From Candidatus Zambryskiibacteriota bacterium (GTDB taxonomy: Bacteria; Patescibacteriota; Minisyncoccia; Phycocordibacterales; Zambryskibacteraceae), in the NCBI GenBank assembly GCA_016177225.1, contig JACOVQ010000009.1:1-54854 (forward strand): a stretch of DNA of 54,854 nucleotides, in the 5' to 3' direction. Made by a program: the position numbers and the translations under genes. Position 1 is the stretch's first letter, and every line of letters starts with the position of its first letter. The notes under the pieces were generated by a model, which ran no database searches, was not told the DNA's origin, and saw only the letters and a list, made by a program, of their open reading frames with translations. Below, piece after piece: positions 28,262-36,553 of this stretch.

Positions 28262-29815
28262 ATGAAAGAAAAATTAGAAAATTTAATAAAAAAGACTTTA
28301 AATTCTCTGGGAATTGAGGATAAAAGATTTGTCGTGGAGCATCCAACCGATCTCAAAATGGGAGATTATTCGACGAATGTAGCTATTAAGTATGGGCATA
28401 AGGAAGAACTAGTGCGATATATCGCATTAAATAAATCTGATGAGATAGGGAAAGTGGAGTTGGCTGGGCCAGGGTTCATTAACTTTTATTTGTCAAAAGA
28501 ATTTTTCAGAAAAAGTTTGGGAGAAATTATTGAAAAAGGAGAGAATTTTGGGAAAAACCAAAATTTGAAAGGGGAAAAAACAATGGTTGAGTACACAGAC
28601 CCGAATCCATTCAAAGAATTCCACATCGGCCATCTGATGAGCAATGCTATTGGGGAAGCGGTTTCAAGAATTATAGAATGGAGCGGCTCGGAAGTGAAAA
28701 GAGCCAATTACGAGGGGGATGTCGGACTTCATATTGCTAAAGCTCTATGGAAAGGCAATTACACTTTGGGTTCTCGGGCTTATGACGAAGACCCACAGGC
28801 AAAAATCGAGATACAAGAAATAAACAAAAAGATTTACGAACAAAGCGACCCGGAACTAAATAGGCGATATGAAAATGGTAAGAAAGAATCTCTACAAAAA
28901 TTTGAAGAAATTTATAAAAGACTCGGCACTAAATTTGATTATTATTTCTTTGAATCAGAGACAGGAAAAATCGGCACGAAGATTGTCGAAGAAAATATCG
29001 GGAAAGTGTTTGAAAAATCTGAAGGCGCCGTTGTATTTAAAGGCAGCCACACCAGAGTTTTTATAAATTCTCAAGGATTGCCGACTTATGAGGCCAAAGA
29101 TTTGGGCAATGCCAAAAATAAATATGACAAATATCAATATACGAAATCCATTGTAGTGACCGGTAATGAAATCAAAGATTATTTCAAGATAGTGCTTGAA
29201 GCGATGTCGCAAATTTTCCCGGAGTTAGCTCACAAAACCAAGCATTTGCCTCATGGCATGTTGCGCTTGCCGACAGGCAAGATGTCTTCAAGAACCGGAG
29301 ATGTTATCACGGCCGAAGAATTGATTGATGAAGTAAAAACTAAAACAAAGGGAAATGAGCCAGTAGCCATAGGCGCGATTAAATATATGATTCTGCGACA
29401 GGCGATAGGCAATGATATTGTTTTTGATTTAGAAAAGTCTGTTTCGACGGAAGGCGATTCTGGGGTATATTTGCAATACGCGCATGCGAGGGCGAACTCC
29501 GTTTTCGAAAAAGCTACTTCTCAAGGTCTGACCTTAAATACGAATTCTCAAGGCCAGACCTTAACACGCGAGATAGAAAAACTTTTATACAGATTTCCGG
29601 AAATTGTGGAGCGAGCTGGTGCAGAATATGCGCCACATTGCATTACAACTTATCTGACAGAACTTGCGGCAAGCTTTAATAATTTTTACGCGCATGAACA
29701 GGTAATAGGAGATTCTCCGGAGTCTGCTTACCGCCTCGCCATAGTCCAAGCTTTCAAAATAGTGATGAAAAACGGCTTAAATATTCTCGGAATTCCAGCT
29801 CCAGAGAGGATGTGA
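28262..29815 (+). CDS. argS: Arginyl-tRNA synthetase
   Basis: VEYTDPNPFKEFHIGHLMSNAIGEAVSRII, YEGDVGLHIAKALWG-like, GMLRLPTGKMSSRTGDVITAEEL. Confidence 0.96.
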   Translation: MKEKLENLIKKTLNSLGIEDKRFVVEHPTDLKMGDYSTNVAIKYGHKEELVRYIALNKSDEIGKVELAGPGFINFYLSKEFFRKSLGEIIEKGENFGKNQNLKGEKTMVEYTDPNPFKEFHIGHLMSNAIGEAVSRIIEWSGSEVKRANYEGDVGLHIAKALWKGNYTLGSRAYDEDPQAKIEIQEINKKIYEQSDPELNRRYENGKKESLQKFEEIYKRLGTKFDYYFFESETGKIGTKIVEENIGKVFEKSEGAVVFKGSHTRVFINSQGLPTYEAKDLGNAKNKYDKYQYTKSIVVTGNEIKDYFKIVLEAMSQIFPELAHKTKHLPHGMLRLPTGKMSSRTGDVITAEELIDEVKTKTKGNEPVAIGAIKYMILRQAIGNDIVFDLEKSVSTEGDSGVYLQYAHARANSVFEKATSQGLTLNTNSQGQTLTREIEKLLYRFPEIVERAGAEYAPHCITTYLTELAASFNNFYAHEQVIGDSPESAYRLAIVQAFKIVMKNGLNILGIPAPERM

Positions 29816-29837: not shown

Positions 29838-32800
29838 ATGGCTGATAAATCTGAACGAGCCCAGAGAGAGGAGGAAATTCTCAAGTTCTGGAAAGAGAAC
29901 AAAATATTTGAGAAAAGTTTGGAGAAAAAATCTCCAAAGGGAGAATTCGTGTTTTATGATGGACCGCCTTTTGCCACCGGACTTCCTCACTATGGCCATA
30001 TTCTTCCTGGAACGATTAAAGATGTAATTCCACGCTACAAAACCATGTGTGGATATAGAGTCCCGCGCAGGTGGGGCTGGGATACGCACGGCCTGCCCAT
30101 AGAAAACCTCATAGAGCAGGAACTGGGACTTACAACAAAAAAAGATATTGAAAAGTTTGGTATCGCCGAATTCAACAAGCGTGCCAGAAACAGCGTTCTT
30201 CGTTTAGAGAAGGAGTGGAAAGAAATTATCCCTCGCACAGGACGATGGGTTGATATGGATAACGCTTATACCACAATGGATTCAAGTTATACCGAGTCTG
30301 TTTGGTGGTCTTTTAAAACTATGTTTGATAAAGGGTTGGTCTACCAAGGTTTTAAATCAATGCATCTCTGTCCAAGGTGCGAGACAACACTCTCGAATTT
30401 TGAGGTGAATCAGGGATACAAAGATATCACTGATATTTCAGTGTATGTGAAGTTTGAGCTTATAGACGAACTGAGAACATTTTTCCTCATATGGACAACC
30501 ACGCCATGGACACTTCCGGGCAATGCTGCTTTAGCTGTCAATCCAAAAGAACTTTATGTAAAAGCCAGAAAGGGAGAAGAGAACTTTATTCTCATGAAGA
30601 TCTTAGCAGATAAGGTTCTTAAGGAAAATTATAAAATTCTGGAAGAATTTTCCGGAGAAAAACTTGTCGGGAAAAGATACAAAACTCTTTTTGATTACTA
30701 CATCACAGAATCGCAGGTTTATGGCGCGGACTTTATAACGACCGAGGATGGTACTGGTATTGTCCATATTGCCCCAGCATTCGGCGAAGATGATTACAGC
30801 CTATCTCTTAAAGAAGGTCTGCAGTTTATTCAGCATGTTGGCACGGATGGGAGATTCAAGATTGAAGTGAAAGATTTTGCAGGTAGAATGGCGAAACCGA
30901 AAGATGACCACCAGTCTACTGACGTTGAAATCATAAAATATTTAGCTCACAAAAACCTGTTGTTTGCCAAGGAAAAAATTACCCACAGCTACCCTCACTG
31001 CTGGCGATGCGACACGCCGCTTTTAAATTACGCCTCCTCATCCTGGTTTGTGAAAGTAACAGAAATAAAAGATAAGCTCATTGCCGCAAATAGGAAAGTT
31101 AAGTGGCTACCGGAAGATATTCGTGACGGGCGTTTTGGCAAATGGCTCGAAGGCTCTCGAGACTGGGCTGTATCCCGCTCTCGCTTTTGGGGCACTCCTC
31201 TGCCTGTGTGGCAAAATTCAGATGAGTCTAAAAAATTTGTAGTTGATTCTATCGAGATACTTAAAAAATATGTAAAAAAGTCTGGCAACAAATATTTTGT
31301 AATGAGACATGGCGAGGCAATGAATAACGCCAGACATGAATTAGATTTAACTGGTGATCCGGATAACCATCTTACAGAAATAGGAAAAGCAGAAGTCAAA
31401 AAAGTAGATGTAAAAAACTTCGATCTAATATTTTCCTCGCCCTTTTTACGCACTAGAGAAACCGCAGAGCTTCTGGGTAAAGATTTTGCAATTGACAATA
31501 GGCTGCATGAAGTTGGTCCAAGTGAAGACCCGATAAATGTGCACCGAAGGATGGGCGAGTTTATTTTTGAGGTTGATAAGAAATATCAAAACAAAAATGT
31601 TTTAATCATTTCTCATGGTTATCCGATCTGGAGTCTCTTTAATCTTGCCAGTAAGAGCAAGTACAACAGGTTAGAACAGCCAAAAACTGGAGAAATATGG
31701 TTGTTAGACTTCGCGCCATATCCTCATGATGAAAATTACGAGCTTGATTTACACCGACCGTACATTGATGAAATTGTTTTAGAAAAAGATGGAGAAGAGT
31801 ACAGAAGAGTACCTGAAGTCTTCGACACTTGGTATGACTCGGGCTCCGTGCCATTCGCATCGCGAAAGGCAAAAGATTTCAGACCCGCTGACTTTATTGC
31901 AGAAGGGCTCGACCAGACCCGTGGCTGGTTTTACACATTGATTGTTCTCGGTACAGCACTTTTTGGAGCTTCACCGTATAGGCAAGTAGTGGTAAACGGT
32001 CTGGTGCTTGCCGAGGATGGTAAGAAGATGAGCAAGCGTTTGAAAAATTACCCTGAGCTCACTGATGTACTCAACAAATTTGGCGGAGATGCACTACGAT
32101 ACTACCTGGTTTCTTCTCCGGCTGTGCGGGCGGAAGATCTGGCCTTTTCAGAAAAAGGCCTTGATGAAGTAGTGAAGAAAAATATTAATCGTCTGGAGAA
32201 TATAGTAAGTTTCTATAAACTGTACAACAAGGATGAAAACGGTACTTTAATATCTAATCATATCCTCGATCGATGGATTGATAAAAAGCTTGAAAAGCTC
32301 ATACTGGATGTTACTGAAAGTCTTGAAAATTACGAGCTCGATCGCGCCAGCCGCCCGACAGCGGAGTTTATCGATGATTTGTCTACATGGTACTTACGCC
32401 GTTCTCGCACTAGGCCAGAGGCTTTGCCAAAATTGAGGGAAGTTCTTATTGTGTTCTCCAAAATTATTGCACCGTTCATGCCATTTATCGCTGAAGATAT
32501 TTACCAGAAGTTAAGAAAATCTGGTGATCTGGAAAGCGTGCATCTATGCGAATGGCCAAAAGTTCGGACAAGATTAAACCTTGTCAAATTCTTAAGGTTT
32601 AACCTTGGGAAAGACATAGTTATAGAAAACATGGCGGAAACTCGCCGGATTGTTTCTCTTGCTCTCGAAGCACGGGCGAAAGCGAATATCAAAGTGAGGC
32701 AACCACTTTCAAAATTACAAATTACAAATGACAAATTACAAAAAGAATATTTAGAAATTATTAGAGACGAAATAAATGTTAAGGAAGTAATTGTAAATAA

Positions 32801-33494: not shown

Positions 33495-35414
33495 ATGAAT
33501 GATAAAGGGAAGAGTGAAATCGAGAAGCTCAATGAGACGCTTAATTCGCGGACTAGATTTGAAGAAACTAAAGACGAAAGGCATCAAGTGAAAGAACTCG
33601 ATGTGCCGAGCGTCCAAGAGAAGTGGCAAAGCCCGGAGCTCGATGAAATGCTCAAGAGCGAGCGCGAGGCACCGAGCCCCGCTTCTTTTGTGAGAAAAGT
33701 TTTTGTCTTCGCCGTTTTGTTTTTCATCGCCACCATTATCGTGGCGGGCTTTGTTTTTCTCGGCGGGGCAAACTTCGTTTCCTCCAAAAACGTCGAAGTA
33801 AATGTAATGGGGCCGACAATGGCCTCGGCTGGAGAAACGCTTGAATTGGGAGTGAGCATTGTCAATAAAAATAACGCCGACTTGGAAGTTTCCAATCTTT
33901 CCGCCCAGTATCCTCAGGGAGCGAGAAATCCGCAAAATTCATCACAAGCGCTTACTTTCGAAAAACAAGAATTGGGAGCCATCCGAGCCGGCGGAGAGAA
34001 AACGAAAAATGTCCGGGCTATTATTCTTGGCGCTATCGGCGACAAAAAAGAATTTAAATTCTCGGTCGAGTACCGGGTCAAGGGCTCTAACGCCACCTTT
34101 TATAAAGACAAAATCTTTGAAGTGGTCATTGGCGATGCTCCTCTCACTATATCCGTAGAAAGTCCGGAGAGAGTCACTTCCGGCGAAGAATTTCAGACCA
34201 AAATTTCCGTTACTTTAAACTCGCCGGATATTTTAAGAGACGTGGTGTTAAAAGCCGAATATCCATATGGTTATGCGGCGATAAGCTCTGCGCCGACCGC
34301 CGCGCAAGAAAATGTGTGGCTTTTGGGAGATATGTCTCCGGGCGATACCAAAACTATTATCATCAGAGGAAAGCTCGCCGGTCAAAATGAGGAAGAAAGA
34401 ACCTCGCGTTTTTATGCCGGAGTCTCCGACGGGAAGGGGGCGCGCAATTTAAGAATCGTATTGACCTCGATACTCAACACTGTAAGCATCAAGCGGCCAG
34501 CCATAGGACTCGACATTTTGCTTAACGGAGAATCGGCCGCAAGTTATGTCGTGCCGGCGGCAAGAAATATTTCTGCGGTGGCTAAATTTCAAAACAATTT
34601 GCCGGACAAACTTCTCGATCCCAGATTAGAGGTTCGTCTTTCCGGTTCCAACCTGAACAAATCTTCTATTTCGGCTTTTCAAGGCGGTTTTTACGATTCG
34701 CTTAATTCTAAAATTGTCTGGCAGATTACCAGCGCGTCAGGAGCTCAAGAACTTGCTCCCGGTGATAGCGGGCAAGTAAACTTTACCTTTGCTTCGCTGC
34801 CGGAAGGAGCTCCGGACTCAAATGCCGGCGATATTAAGCTGGATTTTGTGTTAAGTGGAATACCGGTCGATGCGCCAAGCGCCCAGACTGTCTCGGTTAA
34901 AGAATCGCGCTCGGTAAAAATAGCGTCACAGGTAAATCTTAGCGCCAAAGCCGTGCGTTCCAGCGGGCCGTTTACCAATCGCGGTTCTATCCCGCCTAAA
35001 GCGGAAAGGGAGACCACTTACAGCATTATTTTCAATCTGAAAAATACTTTGGGTAATATCGCGCCGGCTGTAGTGACGGCCAAACTTGGGCCGGGGGTCA
35101 AATGGATTGGGGCGGCGAGCGCTCCGGAGGAAGACATTTCATATAACTCATCTTCGAATACCGTAACTTGGGATTTGGGTACGCTCGCTTCAAGCTCGGG
35201 CTTCTCAGCCGCTTCGAGAGAAATAGCTTTTCAGGTCGGTCTGACTCCATCCACTTCGCAGATTGGTACGGCGCCTATTTTGGTCTCCGGAATAAATTTT
35301 CTGGGCCGGGAGACGGATAGCGGCGCTGACCTAAAGACGACTTCTTCCTCTCTAACCACCCGCCTGACGGCCGACCCCGCATTTATCCAAGGAGATGATA
35401 TAGTGGTAAAATGA
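33495..35414 (+). CDS. Large single-TM surface/extracytoplasmic protein with repeat-like beta domains
   Basis: Cytoplasmic N-terminus, TM (VFVFAVLFFIATIIVAGFVFLGG), Ig/DUF11-like modules. Confidence 0.7.
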   Translation: MNDKGKSEIEKLNETLNSRTRFEETKDERHQVKELDVPSVQEKWQSPELDEMLKSEREAPSPASFVRKVFVFAVLFFIATIIVAGFVFLGGANFVSSKNVEVNVMGPTMASAGETLELGVSIVNKNNADLEVSNLSAQYPQGARNPQNSSQALTFEKQELGAIRAGGEKTKNVRAIILGAIGDKKEFKFSVEYRVKGSNATFYKDKIFEVVIGDAPLTISVESPERVTSGEEFQTKISVTLNSPDILRDVVLKAEYPYGYAAISSAPTAAQENVWLLGDMSPGDTKTIIIRGKLAGQNEEERTSRFYAGVSDGKGARNLRIVLTSILNTVSIKRPAIGLDILLNGESAASYVVPAARNISAVAKFQNNLPDKLLDPRLEVRLSGSNLNKSSISAFQGGFYDSLNSKIVWQITSASGAQELAPGDSGQVNFTFASLPEGAPDSNAGDIKLDFVLSGIPVDAPSAQTVSVKESRSVKIASQVNLSAKAVRSSGPFTNRGSIPPKAERETTYSIIFNLKNTLGNIAPAVVTAKLGPGVKWIGAASAPEEDISYNSSSNTVTWDLGTLASSSGFSAASREIAFQVGLTPSTSQIGTAPILVSGINFLGRETDSGADLKTTSSSLTTRLTADPAFIQGDDIVVK

Positions 35415-36553
35415 TGGAAAAAATCGTATCGCTATGCAAGCGCCGCGGGTTTGTTTATCCGAGTTCGGAGATTTACGGAGGCATTGCCGGTTTTTGGAAT
35501 TACGGACATTACGGCACTATTCTAAAAGAAAATATCAAGTGTCTCTGGAAGCAAAGATTTGTATTCGACCGAGAGGATATGTTTATGACTGACACTTCTA
35601 TCATAAGCTCTCCCAAAGTATTAGAGACTTCGGGACACGTCTCAACTTTCGGTAACGAGATTTTTGAAGTTGAAATCGGTACGGGCGGGGAAACGGCGAT
35701 TTCCCACCTGCGTCCTGAAACCGCGCAAGGCATCTTTACGGATTTTAAAAACTTGGTTGATACTCACCATCCCAAACTTCCGTTTGGCGTGGCGCAGATA
35801 GGCAAAGCGTTTAGAAATGAAATTTCTCCGCGCGATTTTATTTTCCGTTCACGAGAATTTGAACAGATGGAAGTGGAATATTTCACAAGAGAGAAAGAAT
35901 GGGAGAAGTATTTTGAAATATGGAGGAATATTGTAAATAATTTTGCGATTGAAATAAGCGTTAAAGTTCATGAGTTTGAAGTGCCAGAAGACGATAGAGC
36001 GCATTATTCCAAACGCACTATCGATTTCCAGTTCGATTATCCGTTTGGGCGTCAAGAATTATGGGGTCTCGCTTATCGCACCGACTTCGATTTGAAAAAC
36101 CACAAGCTTGATTATTTGGATGAAGAGAGTGGAGAAAAAATTACTCCTCATGTCATAGAACCATCCTTGGGAATAGACAGAACTATTCTTGCCGTCCTGT
36201 CCAGCGCGTATATGGAAGATGAATTGGGGGGAGAAGCAAGAACTTATCTAAAATTGCCTAAACAAATTGCTCCGGTGCGAGCGGCGGTTTTCCCGCTTTT
36301 GAAAAATAAGCCGGCATTAGTCTCGAAAGCGCGAGAAGTATATACAAATCTCAAATCTCAAATCTCAAATATAGAGTTCGACGACAATGGCAATATTGGC
36401 AAGCGCTACAGAAGACAAGACGAAATCGGTACGCCGTACTGCATCACTATCGACTTCGATACTCTTAAAGACAATACCGTAACGGTACGAGACAGAGATA
36501 CGGGAGAACAGGAGAGGGTAAAAATCGAAAATTTGAAAGAAAAGCTTCAATAG
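35411..36553 (+). CDS. glyS: Glycyl-tRNA synthetase (class II, alpha2 type, short)
   Basis: RRGFVYPSSEIYGGIAGFWNYGHYG, RPETAQGIFTDFKN, RNEISPRDFIFRSREFEQME, PHVIEPSLGIDRTILAVL. Confidence 0.95.
   Translation: MMEKIVSLCKRRGFVYPSSEIYGGIAGFWNYGHYGTILKENIKCLWKQRFVFDREDMFMTDTSIISSPKVLETSGHVSTFGNEIFEVEIGTGGETAISHLRPETAQGIFTDFKNLVDTHHPKLPFGVAQIGKAFRNEISPRDFIFRSREFEQMEVEYFTREKEWEKYFEIWRNIVNNFAIEISVKVHEFEVPEDDRAHYSKRTIDFQFDYPFGRQELWGLAYRTDFDLKNHKLDYLDEESGEKITPHVIEPSLGIDRTILAVLSSAYMEDELGGEARTYLKLPKQIAPVRAAVFPLLKNKPALVSKAREVYTNLKSQISNIEFDDNGNIGKRYRRQDEIGTPYCITIDFDTLKDNTVTVRDRDTGEQERVKIENLKEKLQ

Follow-up and report, generated by a model that had tools for sequence, protein, structure and literature searches.

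A 54,854-nucleotide stretch of DNA from a Candidatus Zambryskiibacteriota bacterium (contig JACOVQ010000009.1 of the 15-contig draft assembly GCA_016177225.1; hereafter the window) raises the question of what a complete histidine phosphatase does within the catalytic core of an isoleucyl-tRNA synthetase (IleRS). A sequence-only reading of the window had described a complete RHG-type phosphatase within this protein, placed it at positions 31260-31745, found its RHG, R, E and H residues intact and taken it to be probably active. The domain is there, with PF00300 matched in the insert and TIGR00392 on both flanks, its boundaries had been given correctly to about 15 bases (31275-31748 here), all the catalytic residues are present and conserved, and this conservation supports the suggestion of activity. 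What that reading missed is the swapping of the insert between synthetases, a separately encoded form coupled to ileS, copies in tandem, insertion into valyl-tRNA synthetase (ValRS), and other hydrolase inserts.

The synthetase and its inserted domain

The window protein is an isoleucyl-tRNA synthetase by its TIGR00392 score (845.2 bits against a cut-off of 621.4, with both flanks of the insert matched) and by its motifs (Table 1), and charging of tRNA(Ile) is predicted. The AF2 model of the full-length protein has a pLDDT of 88.8 and its top PDB matches are the IleRS2 structures 8c8u-8c8w. The CP1 editing residues T220-T222, H310 and D319 are invariant among the aligned IleRS and intact in the window copy. 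By reading, the neighbouring genes at 28262-29815 (upstream) and 35411-36553 (downstream) look like ArgRS and GlyRS, respectively, so that ileS appears to sit within a group of synthetase genes.

Alignment to the solved IleRS2 structures ends at residue 478 and restarts at residues 633-634, which gives about 155 inserted residues, located in the CP2 region between WGTPLPVW, in the first half of the core, and DLHRPYID followed by EVFDTWYDSG. The PF00300 (His_Phos_1) match starts at residue 487 (E 1.4e-15, 57.9 bits against a cut-off of 21.7), and the insert alone gives E 1.1e-17. When modelled alone, the cassette takes a histidine-phosphatase fold with a pLDDT of 94.1, and the PDB matches listed for this model are all histidine phosphatases, phosphoserine phosphatases leading and PhoE being closest by TM-score, with TM values of up to 0.75. 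By its motif residues and predicted fold, the cassette is a branch-1 histidine phosphatase. Along with some other inserts it is compact, with 149-162 residues versus about 193-214 in most related inserts, and these compact forms are without a cap segment of about 45 residues that lies between Glu558 and the GE(S/N)..R motif.

The catalytic residues were counted in 133 IleRS domains, a number that includes a few loci fetched twice (Table 1). The first 80 relatives were partly found through a peptide flanking RHG, which biases the count for the RHG motif and not those for R538, E558 and H593. In two close pairs the phosphatase domain has a pN of 0.06 versus a pS of 0.50 (L071/L065) and a pN of 0.10 versus a pS of 0.64 (L058/L051), and by this measure it is under purifying selection. 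Judged from conserved catalytic residues and purifying selection, the cassette is very likely to be catalytically active. More specific identities were rejected, namely dPGM (35.6 bits against a cut-off of 225 bits, with no enolase in the genome), the phosphohistidine phosphatase SixA (TIGR00249, 38.6 versus 74.5 bits) and the alpha-ribazole phosphatase CobC (TIGR03162, 38.1 versus 162.9 bits), and so was membership of ileS_w_GNAT (313 versus 1999 bits; the window IleRS is without a GNAT domain).

Table 1. Features of ileS and of its phosphatase cassette, in positions of the window
Feature	Residues	Position	Strand	Basis
ileS, isoleucyl-tRNA synthetase (IleRS2-like) with inserted histidine phosphatase	1061 aa	29838..33023	+	single uninterrupted frame
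HIGH-type motif HYGH	51-54	29988..29999	+	read from sequence
CP1 editing domain	~193-387	30414..30998	+	matches solved IleRS editing domain 1wk8 there
Histidine phosphatase cassette, compact, cap-less	480-637	31275..31748	+	PF00300, fold, homologous inserts
Left cassette border KKSG, before conserved NKYFVMRHG	480-483	31275..31286	+	kept in most of 81 inserts
RHG motif, H491 presumed phospho-acceptor	R490-H491-G492	31305..31313	+	Arg and His present in all 133 IleRS inserts
Second catalytic Arg	R538	31449..31451	+	133/133 IleRS inserts
Presumed general acid	E558	31509..31511	+	Glu in 132/133 IleRS inserts, Asp in one
Second catalytic His	H593	31614..31616	+	133/133 IleRS inserts
Right cassette border FAPYPHDENYELD, consensus FxPLPHNENYELD	625-637	31710..31748	+	kept in inserts
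KMSKS-type motif KMSKR	730-734	32025..32039	+	sequence; K730, M731, K733 invariant

Distribution among relatives

Scanning public genomes turned up 111 relatives. The names of the 80 retained are for the most part Zambryski-, Nomura-, Adler-, Kaiser-, Campbell-, Wolfe- and Taylorbacteria; one of these relatives is a complete chromosome (CP011215.1, L058). The insert is present in 16 of the 17 genomes of the window's genus, the lone exception being 79% complete, and in all 14 same-genus loci fetched the phosphatase lies inside IleRS. Absence from all close relatives and assembly error were what the sequence-only reading had named as speaking against its claim, and the close relatives share the insert. 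The window does come from a draft assembly, but the chance that an assembly or annotation artefact explains the insert is virtually nil: sharing of the same insert by close relatives rules out an assembly artefact, and identical junctions recur across scores of independent assemblies, long contigs and the complete chromosome among them.

Beyond the genus, the insert is found in more than 100 further genomes. In the class sample, the phosphatase lies within a long frame in more than 120 of 286 genomes, and IleRS is uninterrupted in 78 of the 284 genomes with a match, most of the 78 having no adjacent phosphatase. Given that many relatives in the class lack the insert, IleRS as such does not depend on it.

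Two side observations concern individual loci. A contig labelled Spirochaetia (L044) has the same IleRS with the insert and is probably mis-binned, and four IleRS frames of 1316-1392 aa (L013, L030, L062 and L082) have a C-terminal extension of about 200 aa past the IleRS match.

Exchange of the cassette between backbones

Among 113 IleRS with an insert, identity in the N-part correlates with identity in the C-part at 0.82 and with identity in the insert at 0.38. Similar backbones (about 80-88% identical) can carry divergent inserts (41-50%), as in L004/L011 (backbone 85/87%, insert 49%), L008/L022 (88/79%, 45%) and L041/L021 (84/80%, 41%). The reverse pattern is found as well, with inserts that are 75-78% identical on backbones of 43-52% identity, as in L075/L067 (backbone 43/52%, insert 77%), L062/L095 (48/52%, 78%) and L004/L012 (49/49%, 75%), and mixing of inserts and backbones is also seen within the window's own genus. 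The identity profiles change over near residue 480 on the left and at about residues 632-650 on the right, and these exchange points are the conserved KKSGNKYFVMRHG and PHNENYELDLHRPYID borders; the right border segment (residues 625-637) is absent from stand-alone phosphatases.

An explanation of insert divergence by faster evolution alone is rejected for L203/L211. In this pair, nucleotide identity is 0.93 over residues 400-455, 0.56 in the insert and 0.90 over residues 632-662, and synonymous sites jump too, pS being 0.35 and 0.22 in the flanks and 0.82 in the insert (in most pairs synonymous sites are saturated); moreover, faster evolution does not account for the reverse pattern. AU tests on the insert tree, for pairs picked after their identities had been seen, reject the groupings L004+L011 (p 2.6e-5), L008+L022 (p 6e-33) and L041+L021 (p 3e-4). 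In the backbone tree, where insert2 labels also hit compact single inserts with a split HMM match and were not counted, L004 groups with L011 as its fully supported sister. These comparisons of sequences and trees show the insert to be an exchangeable accessory cassette, replaced by divergent versions while the surrounding synthetase stays unchanged.

Stand-alone, tandem and repeatedly captured copies

Nine genomes with an insert-free IleRS have, directly upstream of ileS, a gene for a closely related phosphatase that stands alone, is about 200 aa long and has ends that coincide with those of the cassette. Its start was located in seven of them, and there the gene overlaps ileS by up to 7 bp or lies up to 14 bp away; the remaining two likewise have frames that abut ileS. 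In some further genomes the stand-alone gene is unlinked to ileS. Family f77 of the phylum (L114, L133-L136 and L140) has an IleRS with two tandem histidine phosphatases, both keeping the catalytic set. The IleRS of L115 (G243) contains three such domains, of which the last sits elsewhere, deeper in the C-terminal half.

In the phosphatase tree, a quick tree with weak deep forks, the tandem, f56, ValRS and class copies stand in different places, which argues for capture more than once. A single origin of all synthetase phosphatases is not supported by this same quick tree, whose starred branches require three or more label changes in the IleRS group. As reconstructed from these genomes, it is shown that the cassette has been captured more than once, lost, or kept beside ileS as a coupled gene.

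ValRS and other inserted domains

Eight phosphatase-bearing frames are valyl-tRNA synthetases, seven by NCBIfam scores above the cut-off and one (L257) by its Val_tRNA-synt_C domain, and their insertion site is homologous to that in IleRS, with the same two flanking core segments. All inspected frames of more than 700 aa with this phosphatase domain are either IleRS or ValRS. Other domains are inserted in the synthetases of the phylum. NUDIX lies in the CP1 region of IleRS in L218, L255, L259 and L260, L255 combining it with a serine hydrolase and a histidine phosphatase in a single 1544-aa IleRS. The serine hydrolase PF06821 is found in this IleRS, in ValRS (L132, together with HAD and phosphatase; L257, with phosphatase) and in LeuRS (L258, with Ham1). 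GNAT accompanies the phosphatase in the IleRS of L117, and the LeuRS of L263 and L265 have a nucleotidyltransferase-like insert with a weak match. These other inserts in IleRS, ValRS and LeuRS are mostly hydrolases of the clean-up type (NUDIX, Ham1, HAD and serine hydrolase); histidine phosphatase, NUDIX, HAD and GNAT domains are abundant and small, and the clean-up theme may reflect abundance or size and not function. A 1519-aa IleRS frame at L254:7-4563 is broken by an intein (PF14890).

What the phosphatase may do

The conserved catalytic set, purifying selection, repeated capture, coupling to ileS and confinement to IleRS and ValRS among the inspected long frames together point to an active enzyme that serves the synthetase, and a function tied to the synthetase is probable. 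Swapping, the ileS-coupled stand-alone gene, tandem copies, insertion in ValRS and the other hydrolase inserts favour an accessory clean-up function. Enzymes typical of nucleotide clean-up include NUDIX, Ham1, HAD and histidine phosphatases. Nucleoside drugs in the form of aminoacyl esters can be cleaved by RBBP9-type hydrolases, and GNAT enzymes and serine peptidases act as immunity enzymes against microcin C, an inhibitor of AspRS. These roles make the removal of a nucleotide-type by-product or inhibitor the leading idea. His491 would take the phosphate, with Arg490, Arg538, Glu558 and His593 assisting, and the cassette would dephosphorylate a small nucleotide-type molecule arising at, or aimed at, IleRS or ValRS, for example a nucleotide formed as a by-product or an aminoacyl-nucleotide inhibitor that bears a phosphate, with protection or clean-up as the outcome for the synthetase. 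Taken whole, substrate class included, this proposal of an active and exchangeable phosphohydrolase is tentative and falls somewhat short of an even chance. The sequence-only reading had suggested tRNA ends, adenylates, ppGpp-like alarmones or phospho-proteins as targets, and the results speak neither for nor against these roles; none of them singles out ppGpp or protein phosphate as the substrate.

The main rival is that the domain is a passenger, a metabolic phosphatase of the phosphoserine-phosphatase or PhoE-like kind, unrelated to aminoacylation and housed in an insertion-tolerant loop of IleRS, where fusion would benefit expression or genome economy. Phosphoserine phosphatases and PhoE are indeed the nearest folds, the site takes inserts in ValRS too while other sites take NUDIX, GNAT and an intein, and in several lineages the gene stands alone, sometimes distant from ileS. 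Nevertheless, the restriction of the long frames to IleRS and ValRS, the repeated capture, the tandem copies and the coupled stand-alone genes link the domain to the synthetase, and swapping with retention of the catalytic residues would be odd for a housekeeping enzyme with a fixed substrate, which leaves the passenger explanation somewhat unlikely. An enzyme of repair or counter-toxin type, stripping phosphate from tRNA ends (for example, a toxin-made 3' pyrophosphate) or from the synthetase itself, would suit the position on a tRNA-binding enzyme and the variable, swappable versions, and cap-less compact inserts would fit a large substrate; however, no tRNA- or protein-specific feature was found in the domain, and most inserts have a cap, like small-molecule phosphatases, so that we consider this role distinctly unlikely.

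It is highly improbable that the domain lacks catalysis and instead has a structural or sensory part, adjusting IleRS upon binding of a phosphorylated ligand. From the middle of the catalytic core it could pass on a signal, and in mycobacterial MutT1 the RHG site is dispensable for the protein-phosphatase activity tested (PMC11784022), but the catalytic set is kept in every IleRS domain compared apart from the one E-to-D change, both tandem copies included. That IleRS houses the cell's phosphoglycerate mutase has next to no probability. The cassette gives the only PF00300 match in its own genome, and iPGM was not found there in a family-by-family search; yet the same search found no enolase, which is also absent from 11 of 12 same-genus genomes searched while the insert persists, and the dPGM score is far below its cut-off. 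With neither enolase nor iPGM in the genome, a role as glycolytic mutase does not explain why the domain is there.

Relation to known systems

Synthetases with extra domains are already known. The NCBIfam family ileS_w_GNAT (NF040702) is a curated precedent for an IleRS with an additional enzymatic domain, which is an acetyltransferase and not a phosphatase, and SepRS variants discussed with Parcubacteria have a fused tRNA-Thr-ED-like domain (PMC8762117), likewise an accessory domain on a synthetase but in a class II enzyme, by terminal fusion and with an unrelated domain. The IleRS2 of Priestia megaterium (PDB 8c8u-8c8w) aligns over its full length and shares the core, the editing domain and the HIGH and KMSKS motifs, whereas no phosphatase lies between its two core halves. 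Among branch-1 enzymes, the phosphoserine phosphatases from Entamoeba (6m1x, 5zkk) and Hydrogenobacter (4ij6), PhoE (1h2e) and TIGAR (3dcy) have the same fold and catalytic residues at about 20% identity to the window cassette, which differs in being without the cap segment. MutT1 (NUDIX plus RHG domain; PMC11784022) is another case of an RHG domain fused to another protein, although not to a synthetase. In full-text searches of a literature with few subscription papers, no histidine phosphatase was found described within IleRS or any other synthetase, and a phosphatase cassette in the core, exchanged between backbones, is new as far as could be checked.

An active-looking phosphatase is kept in the core of an essential synthetase across a large bacterial group, and such retention would imply a phosphate-removal step linked to aminoacylation that is missing from standard schemes. 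The sharp-bordered swapping among near-identical synthetases suggests that variety is selected for, as it is in genes for defence or detoxification. Natural controls are provided by the class itself, in which ileS occurs without the insert, with the phosphatase gene beside it, or with the insert. A broader and doubtful generalization is that the class Ia synthetases of Patescibacteria (IleRS, ValRS and LeuRS) are a chassis for swappable clean-up enzymes. If so, the set would comprise histidine phosphatase, NUDIX, Ham1, HAD, RBBP9-like serine hydrolase and GNAT, which would act where aminoacylation takes place, breaking down or modifying inhibitors of nucleotide type or damaged products, and would amount to an immunity-like, diversifying cassette system within essential translation enzymes.

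Histidine phosphatases outside the synthetases

A phage origin of the cassette was considered and rejected, as a first scan of viral contigs gave no match and a profile scan gave only a distant phosphatase protein of about 323 aa, without a synthetase. In this protein, present on five viral contigs (L266-L270), the histidine phosphatase forms the N-terminal part. In family f55 (L143-L146), with proteins of 437-462 aa, a histidine phosphatase is fused behind a membrane domain that is DedA-like in appearance.
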